A stretch of 64,000 bases of DNA from Oscillospiraceae bacterium (GTDB taxonomy: Bacteria; Bacillota; Clostridia; Oscillospirales; Oscillospiraceae): contig JAFTXW010000016.1 of NCBI GenBank assembly GCA_017461445.1, forward strand, positions 62,001 through 126,000. The letters are read 5' to 3'. The translations under genes were made by a program, and so were the position numbers. This document shows positions 12,021 through 53,919 of this stretch, piece after piece. How positions within the stretch are numbered: position 1 is the stretch's first letter; the number at the start of each line of letters is the position of its first letter. The notes under the pieces were generated by a model, which had not been told where the DNA came from, ran no database searches, and saw only the letters and a program-made list of their open reading frames with translations.

Positions 12021-12476
12021 TCAAACCTTTCTCTGCATATCGATACTGCGGATAGTAAACCCGCACTTCTGGTAAAACGCAACCGCATCATCGTTCTGGG
12101 GGTAGACACCCAGCTGCATATCAGTGCAGCCGAAGGCCTTTGCCAAGGCGCGGACATCGGCCATCATTTCTTTGCCGATGCCCTGATTGCGGCAGGTCTC
12201 CTCCACGCAGATTTCGTCAATGATCATCACGCGCCGTTTCACATGGCCGGGCATATCGTAATTGCGGATTTTCAGAAGCACATAGCCCACAACGGTATCC
12301 GCCAGCCGGGCAACATACAGGTTCCGATTCTGAGTTTCCGCCTGAAACCGCTCCTCCGGGTATAGCTCCTCAGGCATCACATAGATGTCGGGCCGCCAGA
12401 CCACATGGAGGGCGTGGACTTCCATGGCTAGAGCGTTTACCGCCTCACGGTCAGAAGGCCGAGCCAGTTCCAGCAT
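12021..12476 (-). CDS. GNAT-family N-acetyltransferase (upstream copy)
   Basis: This 151-residue acetyltransferase has IDEICVEETCRNQGIGKEMMADV (acetyl-CoA binding) and VYPQNDDAVAFYQKCGF. It begins in the stop codon of tyrS (TAATG), so its translation is coupled to the synthetase. With its tandem paralogue it sits in a tyrosine-controlled operon. An amino-acid or tRNA-related acceptor could be imagined, but nothing in the sequence shows it. Confidence 0.88.
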   Translation of the reverse strand: MLELARPSDREAVNALAMEVHALHVVWRPDIYVMPEELYPEERFQAETQNRNLYVARLADTVVGYVLLKIRNYDMPGHVKRRVMIIDEICVEETCRNQGIGKEMMADVRALAKAFGCTDMQLGVYPQNDDAVAFYQKCGFTIRSIDMQRKV

Positions 12477-13699
12477 TACTCCAGCACCGCCTTGTGGAAG
12501 ACCTTCTTACCCTTGCGGATCTTGACACCGTTTTTGAGCATCTCTTCCGTTACGGTAAAGCTGGCAGTAACGACTTTCTCATCGTTGACAAAAACACCTC
12601 CACCCTCAACCAATCGACGCGCTTCTTTGTTGGAGGATGCCAATTTACAAGCAACCATCAGAGAAAGGATGCCAATCATAGCTTCTTTCAGCAGTTCCGC
12701 AGCAATTTTGGTCGTGGGCATATTGGCATCGTCGCCGCCGCCCACGAACAGGGCCTTGGCAGCAGCCTTGGCCTTGTCGGCCTCTTCCTCGCCGTGAACC
12801 AGCTTGGTCAGCTCGTAGGCCAGAATTTCCTTGGCGGTGTTCAGCTGGGCATCCTTCCAGTCGGCCATGGCGTCGATCTCTTCCAGAGGCAGGAAGGTCA
12901 GCATACGGATACATTTCATCACGTCAGCATCCTCCACGTTCCGCCAGTACTGGTAGAAGTCGAAGGGAGTGGTCTTGTTGGGGTCCAGCCAGACCGCACC
13001 CTTGGCGGTCTTGCCCATCTTCTTGCCCTCGGAGTTCAGGAGCAGGGTGATGGTCATGGCGTGGGCATCCTTGCCCAGCTTCTTGCGGATCAGCTCGGTG
13101 CCTCCCAGCATATTGCTCCACTGGTCATTGCCGCCGAACTGCATATTGCAGCCGTAGTTCTGGTACAGGTGGTAGAAGTCGTAGGACTGCATGATCATGT
13201 AGTTGAATTCCAGGAAGCTGAGGCCCTTCTCCATGCGCTGCTTGTAGCATTCGGCCCGCAGCATGTTGTTGACAGAGAAGCAGGCACCCACCTCCCTCAG
13301 AACGTCCACATAGTTCAGATCCAGCAGCCAGTCGGCGTTGTTGACCATCTGGGCCTTGCCCTCGCCGAACTCAATGAAACGCTCCATCTGCTTCTTGAAG
13401 CAGTCACAGTTATGCTGGATGGTCTCCTGGGTCATCATGGAGCGCATATCGGTACGGCCGGAGGGGTCGCCGATCATGGCGGTGCCGCCGCCGATCAGGG
13501 CAATGGGCTTGTTTCCAGCCATCTGGAGCCGCTTCATCAGGCACAGGGCCATGAAGTGGCCAACGTGCAGGGAGTCGGCGGTGGGGTCAAAGCCGATGTA
13601 GAAGGTGGCCTTGCCGTTGTCGATCATTTCGCGGATCTCGTCCTCATTGGTCACCTGGGCGATCAGACCCCGGGCAACCAGTTCATCATACAGTTTCAT
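12476..13699 (-). CDS. tyrS: Tyrosyl-tRNA synthetase
   Basis: The class I synthetase charges tRNA-Tyr. The 407-residue protein shows the nucleotide-binding HVGH (HIGH) motif in DSLHVGHFMAL, the tyrosine-specific QFGGNDQWSNM, the KMGKT variant of KMSKS and a C-terminal S4 RNA-binding domain (LVEGGGVFVNDEKV). It is the second gene behind the tyrosine T-box leader and overlaps the next GNAT gene by one base. Confidence 0.97.
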   Translation of the reverse strand: MKLYDELVARGLIAQVTNEDEIREMIDNGKATFYIGFDPTADSLHVGHFMALCLMKRLQMAGNKPIALIGGGTAMIGDPSGRTDMRSMMTQETIQHNCDCFKKQMERFIEFGEGKAQMVNNADWLLDLNYVDVLREVGACFSVNNMLRAECYKQRMEKGLSFLEFNYMIMQSYDFYHLYQNYGCNMQFGGNDQWSNMLGGTELIRKKLGKDAHAMTITLLLNSEGKKMGKTAKGAVWLDPNKTTPFDFYQYWRNVEDADVMKCIRMLTFLPLEEIDAMADWKDAQLNTAKEILAYELTKLVHGEEEADKAKAAAKALFVGGGDDANMPTTKIAAELLKEAMIGILSLMVACKLASSNKEARRLVEGGGVFVNDEKVVTASFTVTEEMLKNGVKIRKGKKVFHKAVLE

Positions 13700-13714: not shown

Positions 13715-14650
13715 TTATTGGGCCGCGTCACTGCTCACCATAGTGATAAGGGCAGCGCGCAGAATATTGACGTTGGTTTCTTCCAGGATGGTATCCCTGG
13801 GAGTGTGGATGCGGGCGTAGTAATGGCCCACCCACTTGTGTTTATGGAACGCGGCGATGGCCACGCCATAGGGGAAGTTTCCCTGGTCAGAGGGATAGAC
13901 GGTGAAGCCCTTATCCCGAACCAGGACGGATTTCTTACCGAAATAGCCGGTGCATTTATACAGGGGCCGCAGCTTTTCTACGTTCTTTTTCAGCTTCTTG
14001 CTGGGCATCAGCAGAATGTGGTCGCCGTCGCCCACGCAGTCCATATTCAGAACCACCTGATTTTCCGTGGTCTTTTTGTGGGCCTTGCGGTAGGCGGCGG
14101 AGCCGAGAAGTCCCGCCTCTTCCAGGTCGAACAGGACGAAGCAGACCTTATGCCGCTGGTTTTCAGGCAGAGTGCGGGCAATTTCCAATAGTGTTACTAC
14201 GCCGGAGGTGTTGTCGTTGACGTTGCTGGGATTGGCGGGGCCAACCATCATACAGATCAGCAGTGTCCAGTATACCACAACTGCTGCAAAGGTGCCCAGC
14301 TCCACATTCATGGTAAGAACGCCCAATGCCACACCCACAAGAAACGAAACCAGCATCATCACGGCCACCATAGCCAGCTGATAAGCAAGGTAAACAAACA
14401 CATTGCAGGGGGTGACGATATTGGGGAACAGCATCCGGGCGCAGGTGTCATAATGGGCGGTGATCAGGTATTGGGCCTGCTCCGGGTCGCCGACGACCAG
14501 ATTCCGAACGCCCATACTCCCCTTTTCGACGCTGCATTCATATCCCAACCCCTGGGCATAGGACTGCACAGCATCCCGGAAGGCCTGCTTCTGTGCCTTG
14601 GACTTCCGCACAGGGAACAGCTTCACCACATCCATGGGATTTGCCAGCAT
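13715..14650 (-). CDS. M28-family metallopeptidase with membrane segments
   Basis: This 311-residue protein has the M28 aminopeptidase zinc-site pattern: ITAHYDTC (His, Asp), NDNTSGVVTLLEIAR (bridging Asp), LFDLEEAGLLGS (catalytic Glu and zinc Glu), MDCVGDGD and a late IHTPRD. Two hydrophobic segments lie at about residues 90-150. That makes it a membrane-bound dipeptidase or aminopeptidase-like protein. I use ATG 14650 after GAGAGGAGA; the longer frame would start inside the T-box terminator. It is the first gene behind the tyrosine T-box, 15 bases before tyrS, so it should be induced by uncharged tRNA-Tyr. Confidence 0.85.
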   Translation of the reverse strand: MLANPMDVVKLFPVRKSKAQKQAFRDAVQSYAQGLGYECSVEKGSMGVRNLVVGDPEQAQYLITAHYDTCARMLFPNIVTPCNVFVYLAYQLAMVAVMMLVSFLVGVALGVLTMNVELGTFAAVVVYWTLLICMMVGPANPSNVNDNTSGVVTLLEIARTLPENQRHKVCFVLFDLEEAGLLGSAAYRKAHKKTTENQVVLNMDCVGDGDHILLMPSKKLKKNVEKLRPLYKCTGYFGKKSVLVRDKGFTVYPSDQGNFPYGVAIAAFHKHKWVGHYYARIHTPRDTILEETNVNILRAALITMVSSDAAQ

Positions 14651-14672
14651 GATATCTCTCCTCTCTGTAAAT

Positions 14673-14936
14673 AAAAAACGCCCTCTATCCATACGGATAG
14701 AGGGCGTAAAAATACGCGGTACCACCTCTAATTCGGCATTTCCTCACGGAATATGCCCTCACGGCGTCCAACAACGCCTCTCGCTGTCTCGGGCGACCCC
14801 GTCCTCCCCTACTTTGTATATTTTCAGGCAGGCCACTCCGGGAGGTATTTCGGCGGATCTCCCCACTGCCTTGCACCAACCGGCAGCTCTCTGGCGGGAA
14901 ACGGGACGCTTACTTCTTCCCTTCACAGTGTTACTT
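14673..14936 (-). promoter_or_regulatory. Tyrosine T-box riboswitch
   Basis: Read on the minus strand the leader contains the T-box core GGTGGTACCGCG (14715-14726) after AATTAGA, and ends in a terminator (CGCCCTCTATCC with GGATAGAGGGCG, then TTTTTT, 14673-14706). In the 3' side of stem I, GAAATACC presents UAC at 14845-14847 where the specifier codon is expected, which means tyrosine. Uncharged tRNA-Tyr should stabilise the antiterminator and switch on the M28 peptidase-tyrS-GNAT-GNAT operon. Confidence 0.92.
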
Positions 14937-22418: not shown

Positions 22419-23006
22419 TTACTTTTTCTTTTTCCGGAACAGATCCGGCAGATGGTGCAGTGTATACAGCATCCGGCCCACCGTATGGACGATGGCAGTG
22501 CAGGAATTCACTGCAAAGGACTTGCCGATGGCCTTGCCGCCCACCGTCAGACCCGCCGCCAGGGCGGACATGAGGAGGGAAACGATCTGGGGCCAGGACA
22601 TATCGAAATTACGCAAAATCTGAGCCGCAATGGTAGCGGAGGCAGAGCCGGACACAACGCCGCAGATATCGCCCACCACATCATTGCAGATGGAACTGAC
22701 GCGCTCGGCATTGCGCAGCAGAGAGATCGCCTCCTGAGCACCGGGCACCTTGCGGGCCGCCATGGAATGGAAGGGCTTTTCGTCTGCCGTAGCCACCGCC
22801 ATGCCGATAATGTCAAAAATGATGCCCACCAGAATGATAACCAGCAGGATCAGAAAGGCCACGACCATGGAGCTGTTTTCCATGATGATGTCGGACAGGG
22901 CAGAAATGGTTCCAGAAATAAGAATGGTTACAAAGAAAATGCTGACGACCCAGCGGGTCGCCTTTTGCCGCTCCCGTTTCTGCGCGGCAGGGTCAGATTT
23001 TGCCAC
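22419..23006 (-). CDS. oapA: OLE RNA-associated membrane protein OapA
   Basis: The 195-residue protein has a basic N-terminus (AQKRERQKATR), two or three hydrophobic segments (about residues 20-80), the conserved-looking block DEKPFHSMAARKVPGAQEA and a second block CNDVVGDICGVVSG containing DxxxD, then another hydrophobic stretch and a KKKK tail. Layout and position directly between a 620-nt non-coding RNA and dxs match OapA, the membrane protein that binds OLE RNA in Halalkalibacterium. I start at GTG 23006, eight bases after GAGGT; a TTG at 23021 is also in frame. The family call rests on memory of gene order and motif pattern and not on a search. Confidence 0.8.
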   Translation of the reverse strand: MAKSDPAAQKRERQKATRWVVSIFFVTILISGTISALSDIIMENSSMVVAFLILLVIILVGIIFDIIGMAVATADEKPFHSMAARKVPGAQEAISLLRNAERVSSICNDVVGDICGVVSGSASATIAAQILRNFDMSWPQIVSLLMSALAAGLTVGGKAIGKSFAVNSCTAIVHTVGRMLYTLHHLPDLFRKKKK

Positions 23007-23029
23007 TTTATGATACCTCAAAAAGTTAA

Positions 23030-23655
23030 TAATTTAGAAAGACGGTAGCAGACAGGATAAATCTTACGGCTTAGGTCGGGTTGGTTTTCCCCGGACGGAA
23101 CCTGCCGTTGCCGTACAGGCCGTTTCCATTTGATCCGTCCGTTCAAGTGTTGCCAAATTTGACTACCCGATTGCCACTTAGTCCGTACTGTAATCCCCTG
23201 TCTGCCCAGTTACGACAGCCTAGGTGATTTCCACGGCAGGATGCACCATAGTCTTAGCCTCTTTTGCAAGCATGGTTTCCAGGAGCGATGTCGGCAACCG
23301 TTATGGCCATAACGATCAGCCGCCTGATCTCCTTTCCCCGCAGGCTCACTCAAGGCAGGCTACGCTGCACGCAGCACACGATTCTGTGCACCACCTTGCA
23401 GGTTCTTTTCCCGGCCCGTACGCGGACGGATCCCCTTGCGGAGGACGTTAGCCGCCGTCGCACAATACCAGGTCTCCACGGAAACCGGGTCGTATGCTCC
23501 ATGCCATTGGAGCGCGCCCGGGATCCTTAACCCCCAGCATCCACCCTAAACTGGGCGTAAAAAGCAGACACCAGGGACTTCATCGATGTGCCCTTCATAG
23601 GATTTTTAGGCCCTACCTGGAAGATGGCCATCCTGACTAGGATACTGCACCGTCA
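23030..23655 (-). ncRNA. ole: OLE RNA (ornate large extremophilic RNA)
   Basis: About 625 bases on the minus strand between a promoter (23662-23690) and oapA contain no credible gene, yet are GC-rich and full of local complementarity, for example ATCCT-AGTC-AGGAT near the 5' end. Length (OLE is about 600 nt), orientation, and immediate position upstream of oapA and dxs match the known OLE locus. The RNA forms a membrane-localised ribonucleoprotein with OapA and affects tolerance to cold, short-chain alcohols and magnesium in Halalkalibacterium. RNase P and 6S RNA were considered and do not fit. Ends are approximate; the RNA may be part of the oapA-dxs transcript. Confidence 0.8.
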
Positions 23656-23661
23656 ACGTGT

Positions 23662-23690
23662 ATAATAGCATATAATTTGTGAATATACAA
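23662..23690 (-). promoter_or_regulatory. Promoter of the OLE RNA-oapA-dxs transcript
   Basis: On the minus strand TTGTAT and TATTAT are 17 bases apart in a very AT-rich stretch, with transcription expected to begin near 23655. Confidence 0.65.
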
Positions 23691-33489: not shown

Positions 33490-33650
33490 AAACAAAAAAG
33501 CAGTCCCAGACAAGGACTGCTCTGCATTGCTGCGTCTCTGTCCGTTTGCCTGAGAGATTCGGCTTCCGCCTTGCACCTTCGGCACACAACTGAATGTGTT
33601 CTCCAGAGAGTCCTCTGCCCACCGGTTTCCAAGATCCCGATGGGCTTCTT
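33490..33650 (-). promoter_or_regulatory. Glycine riboswitch controlling glyA
   Basis: Read on the minus strand, the leader contains ATCTCTCAGGCAAA and GGACAGAG, the signature of a glycine aptamer (about 33525-33620), followed by a terminator (AGCAGTCC with GGACTGCT, then TTTTTTG, about 33494-33522). I see one full aptamer; the sequence upstream may be a partial ghost aptamer but not a second complete one. Confidence 0.9.
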
Positions 33651-51798: not shown

Positions 51799-52827
51799 TT
51801 ACTTGGCAACAAAGCCCACCTTCTTATATACCTTGCGCAGGGTCTTTTCCGCCACATAGCTGGCCTTCTGGGCACCGTCCCGGTAGACAGATTCCAGGTA
51901 GCCCTTATCCTTCATCAGCCGCAGGGATTCCTCCCGGATGGGGCGCAGGTGCTCCACGACAGCTTCGCCGACCACGGGCTTGAACTTGCCGTAGCCGCAG
52001 CCGACGAACTCGTTCTCGATTTCCTCGTAGGTCTTGCCGGTGACGGCGGAGTAAATGGTCATCAGATTGGCAACACCGGGCTTGTTCTCCTTGTCGTAGC
52101 GGACGCAGTTTTCCGTATCGGAATCGGTGATGGCCCGCTTGAACTGCTTCATAATGACAGTGGGATCGTCCATCAGCAGGACACGGCCGGTGTCCTCGTT
52201 CTCGGACTTGGACATTTTGGCGGTGGGGTTGGTCAGGCTCATGATCCGGGCGCCCACCTTGGGAACGAAGGGCTCGGGGATCTTGAACACATCGCCGTAA
52301 ATACCGTTGAAGCGGCGGGCAATCACATGGGTCAGCTCCACATGCTGCTTCTGATCCTCACCCACGGGCACCAGATCGGGCTGGTACAGCAGGATATCGC
52401 CGGCCATCAGGCTGGGATAGGTAAAGAGGCCCGCGTTGATGTTGTCGGCATTCTTGGCGGACTTATCCTTGAACTGGGTCATGCGGCTCAGCTCGCCGAA
52501 CATGGAATAGCAGTCCAGCACCCAGCCCAGCTCCGCGTGCTGGTGGACATGGCTCTGGATGAACAGGGTGTTCTTTTCGGGATCCAGGCCGCAGGCGATG
52601 TACTGGGCCAGCTGCTCCAGCGTACGGCGGCGCAGGTCCGCAGGATTCTGGCGGACAGTGATGGCGTGAAGGTCAGCCATAAAATAGAAGCACTCGTACT
52701 GGTCAGCCCGCTCCGCCCAGTTCTTCACGGCACCCAGGTAACTGCCCAGAGTCAGATCGCCGGAGGGCTTGATGCCGGAAAGCATACGCTTCTTGGGCTG
52801 GTTGGTTTCGGTGATGATTTCGCTCAT
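51799..52827 (-). CDS. trpS: Tryptophanyl-tRNA synthetase
   Basis: TrpS charges tRNA-Trp. The 342-residue class I enzyme has the HIGH-like SGDLTLGSYLGA, GEDQKQHVELT and the KMSKS motif in PTAKMSKSEN. The start is ATG 52827, 46 bases after the methyltransferase gene's stop codon, without a separate terminator or promoter, so the leader attenuator upstream of that gene may also control trpS. Confidence 0.96.
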   Translation of the reverse strand: MSEIITETNQPKKRMLSGIKPSGDLTLGSYLGAVKNWAERADQYECFYFMADLHAITVRQNPADLRRRTLEQLAQYIACGLDPEKNTLFIQSHVHQHAELGWVLDCYSMFGELSRMTQFKDKSAKNADNINAGLFTYPSLMAGDILLYQPDLVPVGEDQKQHVELTHVIARRFNGIYGDVFKIPEPFVPKVGARIMSLTNPTAKMSKSENEDTGRVLLMDDPTVIMKQFKRAITDSDTENCVRYDKENKPGVANLMTIYSAVTGKTYEEIENEFVGCGYGKFKPVVGEAVVEHLRPIREESLRLMKDKGYLESVYRDGAQKASYVAEKTLRKVYKKVGFVAK

Positions 52828-52873
52828 AGGATTTCCTCTTCTTTCCGAAATAATTGAAAACATTTTAACACAG

Positions 52874-53680
52874 TTACGGGGATTGCGCAAGGGGATTCTT
52901 GCGGAATACGTCCAGAATATGGTGGGAAACACCCACCATGTCCGCCCGCTCGCAGATGGTGAAGTGGTAGCGCAGGTACAGTTTGAACAGTTCCTTCTCC
53001 ATTTCATCGATGGCAGTACGCATATAATTGGTCGCCATGTCGGTACCCACATAGTGGAGCCGGGTCACGGGGAAGCCCTGCATCAGTTCGTCAATGTCCT
53101 CTTTTCGGTAAAGCTGGAACAGCTCGGCGGGGTCAGAGGAGGCCTTGAAGGTCTCCATATCCACCAGCTCCATGTACCGCTGTTCCCGGAGCATTCCCCG
53201 GCCGAAGCAGTATTGCACCATGGTGGCATCGTTGCCGCAGTAGGCCGCAAAGATCACACCGCCGGGCTTTGTCACCCGGATAGCTTCGGACAGGGCCCGG
53301 TGCTGCTCCTCCACCGTGAACAGGTGGTACATGGGGCCCAGCAGCAGGGTCATATCATAGGTATCATCGGAAAACATCCCCAAATCCTTGGCGTTTCCCT
53401 GCTGAATGGTGATGTTCTCCCCCGGCTGGGTATTCTGTTTGAAAATCTCAATGTTGTGTTCCACCAGCTCCACAGCGTCTACCGTATAGCCCTTCCGGGC
53501 CAGGGTATGGCTGTACCGGCCCGTCGCTGCGCCGATCTCCAGGACGCGCATACCGGGCTGCAGATACTTTTCGATGTAGCGCATAGTTGTCAAAAATTCC
53601 ACGCTGCCGTGCTTCGAGAGCAATCGGCTGTCCTCGTCGTAGCCGGAATAGTAGTCCGTCAGTGCTTTCAGGGTTTCCAT
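52874..53680 (-). CDS. Class I SAM-dependent methyltransferase
   Basis: The 268-residue protein has the SAM-binding loop VLEIGAATGRYSH, the acidic residue after the second strand (AVELVEH) and motif IV-like LLLGPMYHLFTVEEQHR. It belongs to the large Methyltransf_11/25 group. The start is ATG 53680, seven bases after AGGAGG; the ATG at 53686 overlaps the ribosome site. A leader peptide and terminator precede it, so its expression is conditional on translation of the leader. The target may be rRNA, a small molecule or an antibiotic, and is unknown. Confidence 0.85.
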   Translation of the reverse strand: METLKALTDYYSGYDEDSRLLSKHGSVEFLTTMRYIEKYLQPGMRVLEIGAATGRYSHTLARKGYTVDAVELVEHNIEIFKQNTQPGENITIQQGNAKDLGMFSDDTYDMTLLLGPMYHLFTVEEQHRALSEAIRVTKPGGVIFAAYCGNDATMVQYCFGRGMLREQRYMELVDMETFKASSDPAELFQLYRKEDIDELMQGFPVTRLHYVGTDMATNYMRTAIDEMEKELFKLYLRYHFTICERADMVGVSHHILDVFRKNPLAQSP

Positions 53681-53695
53681 TTTCATACCTCCTAA

Positions 53696-53740
53696 AAATA
53701 AAAATCGGTGTAAGCCAACAGAAAAGCCAGCTTACACCGT
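53696..53740 (-). terminator. Attenuator terminator in the methyltransferase leader
   Basis: On the minus strand CGGTGTAAGC (53730-53739) and GCTTACACCG (53705-53715) pair around a 14-base loop, followed by ATTTTTATTTTT, 10 bases before the ribosome site. The 5' arm TGTAAGC can instead pair with GGGCTTACA at 53785-53795, forming an antiterminator. Confidence 0.85.
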
Positions 53741-53760
53741 TACATTCCCAATATGTGCGT

Positions 53761-53862
53761 TTATTCCCGCAAATCTGAGCATGACAATGTAAGCCCGTCC
53801 CAAGGCCAAAAAGCAGGAACGAACTGCGCTGCGGGATATGCAAAAGCGTTGCAGTTGAACAT
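53761..53862 (-). CDS. Leader peptide of the methyltransferase-trpS operon
   Basis: A strong GGAGGG site seven bases upstream serves a 33-residue frame that starts MFNCNAFAYPAAQFVPAFWP and continues WDGLTLSCSDLRE. It lies wholly between the promoter and the attenuator. Its start region GACAATGT is complementary to ACATTGTC in codons 25-27, whose neighbour GGGCTTACA is complementary to the terminator's 5' arm. That gives three exclusive helices, the classical design for ribosome-dependent attenuation. Two Trp codons (19 and 21) could sense tRNA-Trp, or drugs could stall the ribosome; the sequence does not decide. Confidence 0.8.
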   Translation of the reverse strand: MFNCNAFAYPAAQFVPAFWPWDGLTLSCSDLRE

Positions 53863-53890
53863 TGTCTTACCCTCCGCAAAGATTTTTCTT

Positions 53891-53919
53891 ATGGTAACAC
53901 CGAAAAATGGGAATGTCAA
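53891..53919 (-). promoter_or_regulatory. Promoter of the leader peptide-methyltransferase-trpS transcript
   Basis: On the minus strand TTGACA and TACCAT are separated by 17 bases, with transcription expected near 53884. Confidence 0.8.

Follow-up and report, generated by a model that had tools for sequence, protein, structure and literature searches.

In a 64,000-nucleotide stretch of an Oscillospiraceae genome (contig JAFTXW010000016.1; hereafter the window), a gene for a class I S-adenosylmethionine-dependent methyltransferase (MTase; 270 amino acids, 52874–53686, minus strand) is preceded by an attenuator-like leader, the presence of which our analysis confirmed. On the minus strand from 53919 to ~53695, a promoter, a Shine-Dalgarno sequence (SD), a 33-codon open reading frame (ORF) and an intrinsic terminator follow one another in that order 5' of the MTase gene, and thus every part that the original prediction, an earlier note on this DNA, had placed there was located. 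Comparison with related loci suggests that the leader is a transcription attenuator under ribosome control and that its MTase branch responds when a tryptophan (Trp) codon fails to be decoded, a reading that we regard as likely.

Architecture of the leader RNA

All features of the leader lie on the minus strand. The promoter (TTGACA-17-TACCAT, 53891–53919) comprises TTGACA at 53919–53914, a 17-nucleotide (nt) spacer and TACCAT at 53896–53891; its hexamers score 10/12, and the −10 element ends 28 nt 5' of the leader ATG, compared with 26–32 nt in most relatives. Hexamer scores of at least 9/12 are found in 94% of 119 leaders versus 19% of shuffles. An SD (GGAGG, 53871–53875) precedes the leader ORF, which has 33 codons including the stop (MFNCNAFAYPAAQFVPAFWPWDGLTLSCSDLRE, 53764–53862). 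Strand 2 (GGGCTTACATTGTC, 53783–53796), the 5' strand of the antiterminator, lies within the last codons of this ORF and can pair backward with strand 1 (GACAATGT, 53859–53866), the anti-antiterminator, which overlaps the leader start codon and was assigned by covariation and energy, or forward with strand 3 (CGGTGTAAGC, 53730–53739), the 5' arm of the terminator. Strand 4 (GCTTACACCG, 53706–53715) forms the 3' arm of the terminator and is followed by a T-rich tract to ~53695. Two Trp codons are present in the ORF: the conserved W19 (53806–53808), whose first nucleotide is 12 nt before strand 2, and a second one (53802–53800) whose position is not conserved.

The three exclusive pairings that had been proposed for this region exist and are strong by duplex energy, at −16.3 kcal/mol for 1:2, −16.0 kcal/mol for the antiterminator 2:3 and −19.3 kcal/mol for the terminator 3:4. 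None of 500 shuffled versions of the strand 2 surroundings paired as well with strand 1, and the leader fold has a z-score of −3.4 against 200 dinucleotide shuffles. Rfam 15, including its T-box covariance model, gave no match at gathering score over the window leader, and a T-box or other known RNA was accordingly rejected as its identity. The MTase itself probably starts at the second ATG (53680), since the first ATG follows its SD almost directly.

Conservation and covariation among homologous leaders

A genome-contig scan recovered 66 relatives of the MTase, and 23 of 150 family genomes held a match at E ≤ 1e-40. The original prediction had named one outcome that would refute the attenuator, a leader frame not conserved at related loci; this outcome was not observed, and a leader ORF with SD plus terminator was extracted at 56 of 91 MTase-homologue loci. 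Among the remaining 35, which include four loci (L038, L079, L089 and L092) whose ORF candidates were put aside by hand, some contigs begin too close to the MTase and others have different genes directly upstream. Rules, supplemented by some manual choices, defined where the leader starts, strand 2, the terminator and the class of target, and alignments A1 and A2 comprise 40 of the 56 leaders, the 16 more divergent ones being omitted.

Across these 40 leaders, all three helices are conserved with compensatory changes, well beyond chance. Pairing is kept at 85% (1:2), 95% (2:3) and 93% (3:4), falling to 18–53% once the partners slide by 1–3 columns. Alignment cells changed on both sides number 30 (1:2), 11 (2:3) and 60 (3:4), against shuffled means of 14.3, 6.3 and 19.2, and none of 500 shuffles, which ignore kinship among the leaders, reaches any of the three. 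The attenuator model as proposed, in which a leader ribosome chooses among 1:2, 2:3 and 3:4, is thus supported by both conservation and covariation. Apart from this disregard of kinship, two measures count against it: pairs of helix 1:2 with a double change number only four, a value matched by 371/500 shuffles, and further pair types are not clearly above shuffles, which are as high in 49/500 (1:2), 225/500 (2:3) and 348/500 (3:4) cases. One locus also fits it poorly, L009, where the leader frame has no stop and, from 2330 onward, stays open across the terminator and in phase with the MTase, perhaps as a fusion or through faulty assembly.

The leader peptide and its Trp codon

The 119 distinct leaders comprise 77 with an MTase target, 36 with other targets and six of unidentified target that were omitted from comparisons between the two groups. 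A Trp codon lies 5' of strand 2 in 73 of the 77 MTase leaders and starts 9–15 nt before it in 60 (12 nt in 35 leaders and 11 nt in 17), compared with 5/36 other-target leaders (Fisher 9e-11, an optimistic value because the leaders are related). In sets reduced below ~40% identity, Trp is present in 34/35 MTase leaders versus 8/27 others. No out-of-frame TGG occurs in the 9–15 nt interval before strand 2 in any of the 77, while strand 2 itself is found in each of the three frames set by the leader ATG (53, 4 and 20 leaders). Because indels move strand 2 through all frames, we conclude that strand 2 is kept as RNA and Trp is kept as a codon. Among 42 leaders that were selected for a nearby Trp and whose peptides are below 60% alike as far as that residue, relative entropy is 6.53 bits at Trp and at most 1.24 bits at other positions near it. 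Even a sub-branch of 13 leaders with an unrelated peptide (e.g., L052–L059) retains Trp, 24–39 nt upstream of strand 2.

The expected conservation of an FWPWDG-type peptide upstream of related MTase genes was therefore not borne out: the peptide is hypervariable and the Trp codon alone is retained. This hypervariability also disfavors a sequence-specific arrest peptide. No conserved stall motif or peptide of the erm/vmlR type was found among the leaders, which is weak evidence given that vmlR tolerates variants of its upstream ORF (PMC9226507; for this and the other papers cited here, statements refer to the accessible parts of their text). As in trp-type attenuators, a control codon stands before the antiterminator strand, though usually one codon rather than several. 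Trp conservation and spacing fit stalling at the Trp codon better than they fit a sequence-specific arrest peptide. They also leave little room for a constitutive leader with a strong terminator conserved by chance and no regulated read-through, which we consider very improbable: such a leader would give the near-invariant in-frame Trp no role, and the two helices that rival the terminator, 1:2 and 2:3, are themselves conserved with double changes.

Several observations weigh against Trp-codon sensing. Four of the 77 MTase leaders (L042, L043, L051 and L070) have no Trp, and Trp occurs somewhere in 12/36 other-target leaders, including 6/8 of a distant MTase group and a case with an S66 peptidase target. 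Most leaders offer one regulatory codon, an arrangement that in theory responds weakly, or is sensitive only where basal expression is very low (PMC1183508). A Trp or aromatic neighbor is missing at the majority of the 91 MTase loci, and where trpS, for tryptophanyl-tRNA synthetase (TrpRS), is the neighbor, it retains a promoter of its own. For the other target classes, which have 1–9 leaders each, inspection by eye found no fixed sensor codon. Separately, the leaders of L042 and L043 are closely similar, with TGG replaced by TCG (Ser) or TTG (Leu), a possible decay or change of sensor.

A proposed mechanism

From the ORF with its SD, the three covarying helices, the terminator, and the Trp codon with its spacing, we infer the ribosome positions, the signal and the role of the MTase as follows. 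In the ordinary state, the leader ribosome would pass the Trp codon, mask strand 2 and then free it for strand 1; with strand 2 held by strand 1 in the leader SD/start region, strands 3 and 4 would form the terminator. In the induced state, a ribosome paused while the Trp codon occupies its A site would have its front edge adjoining strand 2 (~12–13 nt past the first A-site nucleotide) and would separate strand 1 from strand 2, allowing 2:3 to form and RNA polymerase to enter the MTase gene. We place the edge of this ribosome beside the strand 2 start on the basis of the toeprint edge reported 16 nt past the A of a P-site start codon (PMC9226507). The signal would be a shortage of Trp-tRNA, and the MTase, probably a detoxification enzyme, would protect against the cause of that shortage.

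Alternatively, an antibiotic may stall the leader ribosome at the start codon or near Trp, as in erm/vmlR-type attenuators, with the MTase modifying rRNA or the drug. The three-helix logic resembles that of vmlR, in which a ribosome stalled on the upstream ORF blocks the anti-antiterminator (PMC9226507), and a start-codon stall would free strand 2 here as well. Antibiotic-type induction also stays in play because related leaders control resistance-like genes, namely GNATs and one protein of the streptomycin adenylyltransferase family (ANT(6) type). We nevertheless find this explanation unlikely: a general inhibitor of elongation or initiation would act without a Trp codon, whereas Trp hardly varies here amid variable neighbors, and none of the 25 MTase models listed, of 30 matching, reaches its NCBIfam cut-off (Erm, 20.1 bits versus 212). 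Four solved-structure matches of the MTase are unassigned or related to quinone MTases, with which an rRNA target is still compatible. The original prediction had offered Trp charging and a drug as equal candidate signals; the near-invariance of Trp within a hypervariable peptide favors Trp-codon sensing, without trpS as its reason. The two may even be one idea, if the inducer is a poison of TrpRS or Trp-tRNA.

Genes at the methyltransferase loci

The neighbors of the MTase genes bear on whether the MTase could be a gene of Trp metabolism or starvation under an ordinary Trp attenuator. Consistent with plain amino-acid regulation of this kind, the leader has a Trp codon, the MTase of locus L049 lies between trpF and trpB in a trpDCFBA-like operon, and a few loci have DAHP synthase (downstream in L021), aroB (downstream in L080), aroA (upstream and divergent in L011) or trpS as neighbors. 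These aromatic-gene links are suggestive, few in number and noticed after the fact, and the L049 operon has no leader of this kind. Trp or aromatic neighbors occur at just 10/91 MTase loci, six of which form the trpS clade. By reading of the 91 loci, the genes close downstream are instead GNATs (15), PF01663 phosphodiesterases/nucleotide pyrophosphatases (7), PNP-type phosphorylases (2) and kinase-like genes (2); a Pfam test of seven such genes confirmed six (L010, L012, L018, L024, L033 and L054) and gave no match for the kinase-like gene of L027. In addition, sibling attenuators control unrelated detoxification-type genes, and a single codon is poorly suited to metabolic tuning (PMC1183508). 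We accordingly judge plain amino-acid regulation improbable.

In the window, trpS (51799–52827, −) follows the MTase gene and is the only match at E ≤ 1e-20 in the assembly (90.8% complete). The proposed MTase-trpS operon is right just in part, since trpS has a promoter-like sequence of its own (TTGCGC-17-TAAAAT, 52862–52890, −) overlapping the last codons at the MTase 3' end. A TTGC-17-TA...T arrangement with at least 4/6 matches to TATAAT precedes trpS in 15/18 genus relatives, and in the stretches examined trpS stands beside gltX without an MTase in 13/18. The MTase cassette therefore seems to have entered a gltX-trpS gap. Within the fetched flanks of the 91 loci, trpS lies beside the MTase in the window and L005–L009 alone, and it does so again in L274; the L004 contig ends before the trpS position, and L008 contains only the trpS start. 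As trpS is rare beside the MTase and has a conserved promoter of its own, we rejected it as the controlled gene in general; it need not depend on the attenuator, although read-through could raise its expression.

T-box leaders sense uncharged tRNA and control aminoacyl-tRNA synthetase and amino-acid genes in Firmicutes. The leader described here differs in having no T-box match and in that sensing would go through a translated codon. No known RNA (Rfam) was found upstream of trpS in 20 relatives, and 20 MTase loci picked for having no leader likewise gave no T-box. The window does contain a T-box leader (14697–14935, −) before ORFs read as peptidase-like (13715–14725) and tyrosyl-tRNA synthetase-like (12476–13699), and thus, within one window, tyrS looks T-box controlled and trpS does not.

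Some MTase homologues may be under other control. Those of L038, L060 and L067 have no leader, and a regulator-like ORF lies upstream in L038 and L060 (that of L038 without a Pfam match); it is in these two that such control may operate. The 400 bases upstream of a Subdoligranulum plasmid MTase (61%) also have no leader of this kind. As a check for mobile copies, viral_contigs were searched with a 20-base strand 2 pattern, which gave no exact match.

Sibling attenuators with other target genes

The same RNA architecture precedes several other gene families. We used two covariance models, R1 (strand 2 plus terminator) and R2 (built from mixed targets); some of the leaders also served to build them, and these match by construction. 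At E ≤ 0.01, R1 matched 136 of the 394 genomes drawn from the order, many matches being partial and terminator-like, and gave one full-length match in the window's own genome; its weak or partial hits L194–L199 were dropped. At E ≤ 1e-5, R2 matched 50 of the 394 order genomes versus 4 of 391 class genomes, one of those four lying outside the order. Four families within the order had matches at E ≤ 1e-6 in 9/21, 21/63, 4/20 and 14/200 genomes. These counts are lower bounds, because searches over 40 genomes filter more strictly and score few candidates each. By our rule, three of the fetched R1 loci (L174, L184 and L185) lack a leader ORF, and they were excluded from codon counts.

Among distinct leaders, the downstream genes encode GNATs (9), PNP_UDP_1 phosphorylases (4), GNAT-MTase fusions (4), P-loop kinase-like proteins (3, without a Pfam match above cut-off) and more distant MTases, in classes of which not every member was Pfam-tested. 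Single cases precede an S66 carboxypeptidase (L129), an S51 peptidase (L161) and a protein of the streptomycin adenylyltransferase family (L179). The last matches its Pfam family at 4.3e-104 and scores 248.9 bits, below the NCBI ANT_6 cut-off of 420; the best NCBIfam hit of the S66 protein is a cell-wall carboxypeptidase model, also below cut-off. The leader of the S66 gene is of the Trp type and closely resembles that of the MTase locus L144. Sibling leaders otherwise have the RNA in common, and mostly not the peptide.

GNAT-MTase fusions follow an attenuator in L153, L163, L168, L173 and L177 (451 amino acids; both domains by Pfam in L153 and L177, by similarity in the others), and these fusions suggest that a single substrate may be both acetylated and methylated. 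Three further loci were observed. In L169 (G185:C8), one attenuator is followed by ORFs read as a GNAT, a P-loop kinase-like protein, an unassigned protein and a second GNAT. In L185 (G424:C13), the R1/R2 match stands before a methionyl-tRNA synthetase gene (Pfam tRNA-synt_1g). In L240 (G898:C153), a Trp-type leader is followed by an ORF read as an IS200-like transposase in place of the MTase.

Comparison with known attenuators

The nearest likeness is to vmlR of Bacillus subtilis, which has a 5' upstream ORF, an anti-antiterminator over the start of that ORF, an antiterminator and an intrinsic terminator, with stalling deciding among them; it differs in its tripeptide ORF, in its response to drugs that stall initiating ribosomes and in its ABC-F target (PMC9226507). 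Here, by comparison, the ORF mostly has 24–40 codons, the MTase branch carries a near-invariant Trp codon and the targets are several and unrelated. Leaders of the trp/his type likewise place the control codon just before the antiterminator strand and form exclusive 1:2, 2:3 and 3:4 helices, but they use a run of control codons where there is usually one here, and the target here is mostly not an amino-acid gene. According to a 2010 paper, before the His leaders that it reported in bacilli, none were known outside Proteobacteria and Actinobacteria (PMC2965389). Our literature searches, with subscription papers mostly outside their reach, found no description of this leader. The mechanism would be of a known kind, ribosome-mediated attenuation, while the RNA family, the Trp codon in Clostridia and the use with multiple targets are new as far as those searches show.

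Other RNAs in the window

Two further RNAs lie on the minus strand of the window. An OLE RNA (23026–23669, 440.8 bits) is directly upstream of a 200-amino-acid ORF (22419–23021, −), which may encode the OLE RNA partner protein, and a glycine riboswitch aptamer occupies 33528–33616.

A possible defense against synthetase poisons

The target genes recall immunity to microcin C, the processed form of which is an aminoacyl-nucleotide that blocks aspartyl-tRNA synthetase, and which is inactivated by MccF (S66), MccG (S51) and MccE2 (GNAT) (PMC9239234). The families of MccE/RimL (GNAT), MccF and MccG are common to the sibling targets, at family level only, and known microcin C differs in that its target is not TrpRS. 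According to PMC3817062, RimL and MccE can acetylate a large number of aminoacyl adenylates, and the Leu- and Gly-sulfamoyladenosines assayed there ceased to inhibit once N-alpha-methylated. The target set as a whole (S66, S51, GNAT, phosphodiesterase, nucleoside phosphorylase, MTase and fusions) fits putative modifiers of aminoacyl-nucleotide-like molecules. Since a single rare codon gives little or no response short of severe depletion (PMC1183508), the leader is better matched to an emergency response than to the tuning of metabolism. Taken from sequence data, this pattern suggests an inducible defense against poisons that deprive ribosomes of charged tRNA.

More tentatively, and in our view less probably than not, these leaders could form an interchangeable attenuator family in gut Oscillospirales that detects poisoning of single aminoacyl-tRNA synthetases, with one common RNA switch carrying different leader codons. 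The Trp version would report TrpRS inhibition and induce an MTase, often accompanied by a GNAT, phosphodiesterase, nucleoside phosphorylase or kinase-like partner, that inactivates an aminoacyl-nucleotide-like toxin, plausibly by N-alpha-methylation, while the S66 and S51 branches would act against related toxins. Three points tell against a toxin reading of the targets: MccF is said to cleave effectively just Asp and Glu adenylates (PMC9239234, PMC3817062), while a Trp leader precedes the S66 gene here; S66 and S51 targets were each found once; and the ANT(6)-like target misfits a synthetase poison and keeps ribosome-directed drugs in play.

Amino-acid leader peptides have been thought rare in Firmicutes (PMC2965389, 2010), and here one architecture is used with exchangeable peptides. 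Behind it stand six Pfam-assigned families (MTase, GNAT, PNP, S66, S51 and ANT(6)-type) and one kinase-like family. If the leader codon does name the poisoned synthetase, these leaders would allow one to predict what induces uncharacterized detoxification enzymes and what those enzymes act on, and they would point to unknown synthetase-directed antibiotics in animal guts.
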